Below the pieces are notes generated by a model, which was given only the letters and a program-made list of their open reading frames with translations, did no database searches and was not told where the DNA came from. A stretch of DNA of 64,000 bases from Opitutales bacterium (GTDB lineage: Bacteria > Verrucomicrobiota > Verrucomicrobiia > Opitutales > JABSRG01), in the NCBI GenBank assembly GCA_028280845.1, contig JANQKZ010000053.1:1-64000 (forward strand), given 5' to 3'. The position numbers and the translations under genes were made by a program. Positions 34,362-35,720 of the stretch are shown here, one piece after another. Within the stretch, counting starts at the first letter, position 1. Each line of letters opens with the position of its first letter.

Positions 34362-35720
34362 TTATCGTCCGTGGCCAGCCATTTTCTCGACCAGAGGCAG
34401 CATTTCGCCTCGCCGGAACAAGGTGACCTGCCCCGTGCTGCTACTGACCACAATAGCGAGAGAGTCAGAGGCCATGGTAATGGCAGCGGCAGCCGCATGG
34501 CGTGCTCCTAGCCCACCCGGCAGGGTATGCTTGTAATCCGGGGTGTGGATTAGCGTGCCGGCGGACTCGAGCACGCCGTTTCCGCGAATGATAAAAGCCC
34601 CGTCAATCGAAGATAGCTCCTTCACGGTTTCATCCATAAAGGGACTCAGAATATTGCGGTCCTCTTCCCGGTACCCATAAAACGGATTTAAGACCAGAGG
34701 TTTGGTATACTGCTTCACCTGATCTGTATCTCCCAGCACAAACAGGCTACCTACTGGCGTCCCCTCACGGCCTTCCACCGACAATTCGGTGGCAATGGCC
34801 AATACCCGCTCCACAACTTCAGGATGCACGCTACTGGGCAACATTTTCGTGTCGAGGGTCATGATGGTTCGGAACTCACGCTCTACATCTACCACCACGA
34901 TGGTATCAAACTGGTTACTCTGCGGAATTCCGCCTACACAACAGAGTCGCGAATTGAAGGCAAATAGTCCTCGGGTCAGCCCGATCAGGACTGCGCTGCG
35001 CAGCTGGCTGAGTCGGTTATTGGAGTAAGATCGGACCGCCAGACTGGCATCGATAAATTTTCGAGGAGTACTGCCCTCGCCCACACTCGGAGTAATGAGA
35101 ATGGTTTTGAATCCCTTAAAGGCCCGAGCCAGTTCAATGCCTCCGGCGAAGGTATCTCCAAAGATCAGGATGGCCTGACATTTTGCACCACGGGCCACCG
35201 TCTCGGCCTCCTTCAAAATAAGCCGGTTGAACTTATTTTGCTTGGTCTGCGGAGTCACCGCATCCCCCTCAAAGACTTTGGACAATTCGCTCCGGTAATC
35301 CGATAGCAGGTGAGCCCCCTCCAGGCGATTCATCATTTGCGGGTCCTGAAAGACCCGGGCCAGGGACGCCAGAACGTTCAGATAGTTGCGGGCCGTTTCA
35401 TTCGCCAGGAGCAAAAAGATTTGGCGCACCTCTCCATATTCATTGTGCCCCTTGTGCGTCAGCCCGGTCGGGGTGCGCCCGACGGCCAGGAGATAACGTC
35501 GTCGCATCGGGATGCGTATGTGGGGAAGAGCCACTCCATTGCCCAGGTAGGTCGTCATGGTCGCCTCCCGGTCGAGAAGCTGTTTCAGGAGCTGTTTCCG
35601 GTCCACCTTGTCCTCTTCATGGAAATTGCAGACGTCCAACAATTCCTTCAAGGCCCCATGGAGGTCATTGCTTTTCAGGTCGATTACCCGGTTTTTGGCG
35701 ATGTAACTATTCAGGCGCAT
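34362..35720 (-). CDS. PTS EIIA / diadenylate cyclase (DAC) domain fusion protein
   Basis: 452 aa. Residues about 1-150 are a PTS EIIA type 2 (fructose/mannitol/Ntr) domain. It has LGNGVALPHIRIP with the phospho-acceptor His 67 and a GEVRQIFLLLANE segment. Residues about 165-330 are an unrecognised linker with alpha/beta patterns (AILIFGDTFAGGIELARAF). The C-terminal ~100 residues match the DisA_N/DAC fold that makes c-di-AMP from ATP. They show DGAFIIRGNGVLESAG (DGA near 372), then GGLGARHAAAAAIT (RH near 405) and VVSSSTGQVTLFRRGEM. The usual RHR reads RHA, and the SEETG-type acidic pair reads SSSTG, so activity must be tested. Product and signal would link sugar/nitrogen phosphotransfer to c-di-AMP. 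Confidence 0.85.
   Translation of the reverse strand: MRLNSYIAKNRVIDLKSNDLHGALKELLDVCNFHEEDKVDRKQLLKQLLDREATMTTYLGNGVALPHIRIPMRRRYLLAVGRTPTGLTHKGHNEYGEVRQIFLLLANETARNYLNVLASLARVFQDPQMMNRLEGAHLLSDYRSELSKVFEGDAVTPQTKQNKFNRLILKEAETVARGAKCQAILIFGDTFAGGIELARAFKGFKTILITPSVGEGSTPRKFIDASLAVRSYSNNRLSQLRSAVLIGLTRGLFAFNSRLCCVGGIPQSNQFDTIVVVDVEREFRTIMTLDTKMLPSSVHPEVVERVLAIATELSVEGREGTPVGSLFVLGDTDQVKQYTKPLVLNPFYGYREEDRNILSPFMDETVKELSSIDGAFIIRGNGVLESAGTLIHTPDYKHTLPGGLGARHAAAAAITMASDSLAIVVSSSTGQVTLFRRGEMLPLVEKMAGHGR

Follow-up and report, generated by a model that had tools for sequence, protein, structure and literature searches.

A PTS EIIA domain joined to a DacD-class diadenylate cyclase in Opitutales, probably a PTS-regulated c-di-AMP synthase

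The window, a stretch of 64,000 nucleotides from an Opitutales genome, carries on its minus strand a dacD-like gene whose product joins a phosphotransferase system (PTS) domain, a middle domain and a diadenylate cyclase (DAC) domain in one chain. The gene and its parts are, with the basis for each:

34362..35720, minus strand: dacD-like gene, EIIA-DacZ_P-DAC, 452 aa plus stop (open reading frame, Pfam and relatives)
35313..35684, minus strand: PTS_EIIA_2 domain, residues 13-136 (Pfam, fold match)
35520..35522, minus strand: codon of His67, predicted phospho-acceptor, in an LPH motif (sequence)
34866..35234, minus strand: DacZ_P domain, residues 163-285, pyruvate-kinase C-terminal-like fold, probable sensor (Pfam, fold match)
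34404..34781, minus strand: DAC domain, residues 314-439 (Pfam, fold match)
34596..34604, minus strand: DGA motif, residues 373-375 (Asp373 and Gly374 invariant, 191/191)
34497..34508, minus strand: GARH, residues 405-408, of the GxRHx motif (R407 and H408 invariant, 191/191)
34437..34448, minus strand: VSSS, residues 425-428, counterpart of VSEE in CdaA (S426 invariant; S428 in 189/191)

The start codon is ATG, and its position agrees with the N-terminus conserved in about 100 relatives (MRLDRYI...). All three domains of the 452-aa protein exceed their Pfam cut-offs, PTS_EIIA_2 with 66.7 bits as compared to 27, DacZ_P with 61.6 as compared to 27.4, and DAC with 73 as compared to 27. The sequence-only reading had already placed a PTS EIIA and a DAC domain in one chain of 452 aa, and it was exact in its coordinates and right about its motifs; His67, DGA at 373-375, GARHA at 405-409 and VSSSTG at 425-430 are all there. 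It gave no strand, though, and its two-domain description overlooked the DacZ_P domain, with its pyruvate-kinase C-terminal-like (PK_C-like) fold, in the middle. An AlphaFold2 model made from 49 homologues had a mean pLDDT of 85 and a pTM of 0.57; the predicted domains are reliable, their mutual arrangement is not. In structure searches the EIIA range of the model resembled EIIA-Ntr (Z 18.2, to 1a6j), the DacZ_P range the C-domain of pyruvate kinase (Z 14.7), and the DAC range the DAC domains of CdaA and DisA (Z 14-16). The domains, the predicted catalytic residues and the single-copy state of DAC and EIIA_2 can all be read from the sequence together with the predicted structure.

On one side the gene is flanked by mrp/DUF4032-like genes and on the other by DUF362, TPR, dnaG and rpoD genes, and much of this neighbourhood is common to the relatives. 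No PTS or c-di-AMP gene was found beside dacD in the window or in the neighbourhood shared by the relatives, and operon context was for this reason rejected as a guide to the function. An Rfam scan of the window gave no match.

The EIIA domain has the fold and the active-site His of EIIA-Ntr (PtsN), a regulatory IIA which in Proteobacteria controls K+ transport via protein contact. EIIA-Ntr is however a free protein, whereas the domain seen here is part of a second-messenger synthase. At the other end of the chain, the DAC fold and the DGA/GxRH core are the same as in CdaA/DacA and DisA. CdaA has, however, a membrane part, and DisA a DNA-binding part at its C-terminus, that are replaced here by the PK_C-like and EIIA domains, and RHA and SSS stand where those proteins have RHR and SEE. 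Identity with CdaA and with DisA was rejected, the scores being 32.4 bits as compared to a cut-off of 188.8 (TIGR00159) and 22.4 as compared to 201 (NF010009). A PK_C-like domain together with DAC is also found in archaeal DacZ (Haloferax volcanii) and DacY/CdaZ, and a PK_C-like domain in front of DAC is shared with the DacZ/CdaZ superfamily, which includes DacD. The RHx and SxS motifs are the same in DacZ of Haladaptatus, 34% identical over 183 aa. Archaeal DacZ is, on the other hand, without EIIA (268 aa in Haladaptatus), and the archaeal DacZ equivalog of NCBIfam, NF041371, gave 110.4 bits as compared to its curated cut-off of 430. Braun et al. (2019, PMC6741144), using the class names of Corrigan and Grundling (2013), list Lacunisphaera limnophila, Puniceicoccaceae, Coraliomargarita and Opitutae bacteria as representatives of the DacD class. 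These belong to the window's order, of which the dacD product is the standard DAC, and our assignment to DacD is based on these shared taxa and not on a domain definition or a sequence match to the accessions of that study.

DAC is present in nearly all of 289 genomes of the phylum, mostly one per genome. The DAC-model scores in the window's order are about 1e-20, as for the dacD product, while nearly all others among the 289 genomes range from 1e-31 to 1e-44; the order therefore uses a different DAC lineage. DacD, full-length or EIIA-less, was found in 118 of the 132 genomes sampled from the order, and the organism names of the relatives include Opitutales, Puniceicoccaceae and Opitutus. A scan of named genomes, led by an alignment headed by the most distant copy, also gave the EIIA-DacZ_P-DAC fusion in Spirochaetota, Fibrobacterota, Planctomycetota, Hydrogenedentota, Kiritimatiellota, a deltaproteobacterium and other Verrucomicrobiota, as well as EIIA-less DacZ_P-DAC versions in Thermodesulfobacteriota. 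Since the fusion is spread across several phyla, the architecture is old rather than a local accident. Phage records held no EIIA-DAC fusion, the matches there being weak and confined, among those listed, to the N-terminal 30-39% of the protein. A PADLOC search for a link to defence systems matched only the generic diadenylate cyclase model.

Some loci contain further genes of the same kinds. A second, EIIA-less DacZ_P-DAC gene of about 300 aa is present in two of them (L068:496-4945 and L069:821-5201), lying after genes for a UDPGP-type uridylyltransferase and a phosphoglucomutase/phosphomannomutase; the arrangement calls to mind the association of CdaA with GlmM. The EIIA-less paralog of L071 is followed by the gene of a DUF2254 membrane protein. 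In Pontiellaceae (L192:4976-10366) dacD is situated between two more EIIA_2 proteins, one with a zinc ribbon joined to EIIA, the other a fusion of an amino acid permease with EIIA. Fibrobacterota-type loci (L160, L162-L165, L167, L176, L178, L196) have an acyltransferase gene 5' of dacD, mostly directly upstream, and one of these acyltransferases matches glycerol-3-phosphate acyltransferase in Pfam. Position 67 is often Gln in loci of this type.

The window's genome encodes EI (C6:97476), HPr (C18:8623) and HPrK (C51:69481). The EIIA_2 of the dacD product is its only EIIA_2 match, and no EIIA-Man was found in this genome. Three single-contig genomes (G292, G313, G358) likewise have their only EIIA_2 within dacD, with EI, HPr and HPrK all present. 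Exactly one EIIA_2 match was seen in 70 of the 107 DacD-positive genomes that have any, and the location of this match inside dacD was checked only for the window's genome and the same three single-contig genomes.

His67 tends to follow EI. Position 67 is His in 71 of the 79 rows of the order with EI, as compared to 9 of the 27 without, but the naive Fisher p of 3e-8 ignores kinship, the EI losses being few and clustered, and is not taken as proof. A phylogenetic pair test of EI against His67 had only 4-5 independent pairs and the sign test was not significant, and some of the EI-negative calls come from fragmented genomes and may reflect gaps in the assembly. In small EI-less genomes the EIIA domain is gone (f80 and two of f81) or decayed (f83), or its His has become Tyr (f82), with all DAC residues kept. 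EI is encoded in 45 of the 47 genomes with relatives from the named-genome scan, and His67 is conserved in most other phyla. There are exceptions among the EI-positive genomes, as Tyr67 occurs in four of f64, the EIIA is decayed in four of f4 and several Fibrobacterota carry Gln67, and in the reverse direction f67, most of it EI-less, still has His. That His67 and EI tend to go together fits phospho-control of the protein. Taken as a whole, anatomy and genome content support the link to the PTS well, evolution moderately.

The 7TMR-HDED domain of the c-di-AMP phosphodiesterase PgpH is present in the window's genome (C23:13063). Across the genomes of the order, 112 have both DacD and PgpH and 9 have neither, with 6 and 5 discordant, and in family f4 PgpH is missing wherever DacD is. 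c-di-AMP riboswitches were detected in six of the order's genomes; in four the riboswitch precedes trkH. In G085 such a riboswitch occurs together with a single detected DAC, which is of DacD type; the window's own genome gave no riboswitch match. The four loci upstream of trkH, which encodes the TrkH K+ transporter, are L240, L242, L243 and L244, while the other two are found before an SPFH protein (L245) and an amino acid permease (L241). Five f4 genomes that are at least 97% complete (G102, G336, G357, G377, G388) have neither DacD nor PgpH, and related f4 genomes of g21 have retained the two proteins, their EIIA being decayed. In the f4 genomes without the two proteins c-di-AMP signalling may have been lost naturally, the absence of any DAC being checked in G102 only. 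An active c-di-AMP system in the order is very likely because of the invariant DAC residues, the likeness to DacZ, the sole DAC, the co-occurrence with PgpH and the riboswitches, and the dacD product is, as judged from its sequence, probably an active cyclase.

The full RHR and (V/I)SEE motifs of CdaA are absent from the protein, which has RHA and VSSS, and from this the sequence-only reading suspected an altered or inactive domain. A catalytically dead DAC domain, or one with another product, would leave the protein as a non-enzymatic PTS sensor. Ser428 also occupies the position of Glu124 of CdaA, which is a metal ligand (PMC7288161), and metal use may differ with Ser in place of Glu. The same changes are however a trait of the whole family: Asp373, Gly374, Arg407, His408 and Ser426 are unvarying in 191/191 homologues, in place of RHR there is mostly RHA or some other RHx, and in place of SEE nearly throughout SxS. 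Two archaeal DacZ proteins of Haladaptatus have RHH and SES at the same positions, and DacZ of H. volcanii makes c-di-AMP in vitro, with Mn2+ (PMC6741144), although the motifs were compared in the two Haladaptatus proteins and not in the H. volcanii protein itself. The search for other DAC genes that had been suggested was run and found none, so that this is the sole DAC found in its genome. Inactivity was rejected as the likely reading on these grounds, and the loss of DacD together with PgpH, the riboswitches of relatives and the invariance of the DAC residues even after EIIA loss also speak against it; we regard a dead domain as very unlikely. It is hardly credible that the EIIA domain serves a sugar transporter as phosphoryl carrier and was fused to the cyclase by chance, since its nearest folds, for all its homology to fructose/mannitol/Ntr IIA, are those of the regulatory EIIA-Ntr and no transporter gene adjoins dacD in the window.

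The main rival mechanism is that of an active cyclase whose EIIA domain senses through the binding of HPr, for example HPr phosphorylated on Ser by HPrK, or through dimerisation; phosphorylation of the His would then play a secondary part or none. Several lineages have retained the EIIA domain with Tyr67 or Gln67, and the EI-less g185 (f82) keeps HPr in most genomes. In four of the seven g185 species hprK is directly downstream of dacD, in three it was not detected. Loci with hprK directly 3' of dacD are L231:7001-9344 and L096, L097, L098 and L100 (EI-less, small-genome f82 g185, with Tyr67). As far as known enzymes go, HPr of the EI-less g185 would be phosphorylatable on Ser only. The Tyr67 and Gln67 lineages and the g185 loci imply that the phospho-site can go while the domain and the link to HPr/HPrK stay, and because EI-less g185 keeps HPr and has hprK adjoining dacD, HPr/HPrK may signal to DacD there without His phosphorylation or EI. 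As a mechanism for the family it is rather improbable, as His67 is kept in 71 of the 79 EI-positive genomes and in most other phyla, above what pure docking would lead one to expect.

The sequence-only reading had proposed a direct coupling of PTS state to c-di-AMP synthesis. Because EIIA and DAC lie in one chain, EI and HPr are encoded in the genome, the DAC is the only one and His67 is mostly kept with EI, such coupling is the best reading. The dacD product is then probably a PTS-regulated cyclase of a known class. We hold it to be likely that it is a DacD/DacZ-type enzyme making the c-di-AMP of the cell, and that it is modulated by phosphorylation of His67 via PEP, EI and HPr. Phosphate from PEP would pass to EI, to HPr and on to His67 of the EIIA domain, the phosphorylation state of which would report the PEP/pyruvate state, that is energy and carbon, and would modulate the DAC domain of the same chain. 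A ligand of the middle PK_C-like domain would perhaps act on DAC jointly with the state of His67. The c-di-AMP made would have potassium and osmotic balance as its target and would be cleared by PgpH. For the dacD product we infer catalysis, His67 phosphorylation and the allosteric transmission with its direction.

The EIIA receiver, these findings suggest, is the main or only known output of the PTS relay in many of these bacteria. There is about an even chance that in much of the order the PTS has been reduced to a signalling relay of EI, HPr and HPrK, whose sole EIIA output, as seen in searches for EIIA_2 and EIIA-Man, is the c-di-AMP synthase itself; the state of the PTS would then determine how much there is of a second messenger that is often essential, and where EI is lost the receiver would decay and the cyclase stay.

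A literature search for EIIA together with either diadenylate cyclase or c-di-AMP turned up no publication about a fusion of this sort or about PTS input to a DAC. A review of DAC architectures by Galperin from 2023 reportedly may describe EIIA-DacZ_P-DAC. The architecture has very probably been catalogued already, since Braun et al. (2019) list DacD in these taxa and Pfam names DacZ_P. For DacD, a link to EIIA or the PTS, the status as sole copy and the loss together with EI were not found in the literature consulted. The protein is of a known class, and the functional link to the PTS is a new, testable proposal.

To our knowledge, the signals that set c-di-AMP synthesis are largely open. Here a sensor lies in the same chain as the cyclase, with phosphorylated His67 as a candidate covalent input, and the lineages without EI, without His67 or without the whole EIIA domain, all with the cyclase kept, offer natural controls. 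If true, the proposal would tie carbon and energy state to the control of potassium in several phyla of bacteria, a part that EIIA-Ntr plays in Proteobacteria through protein contact.
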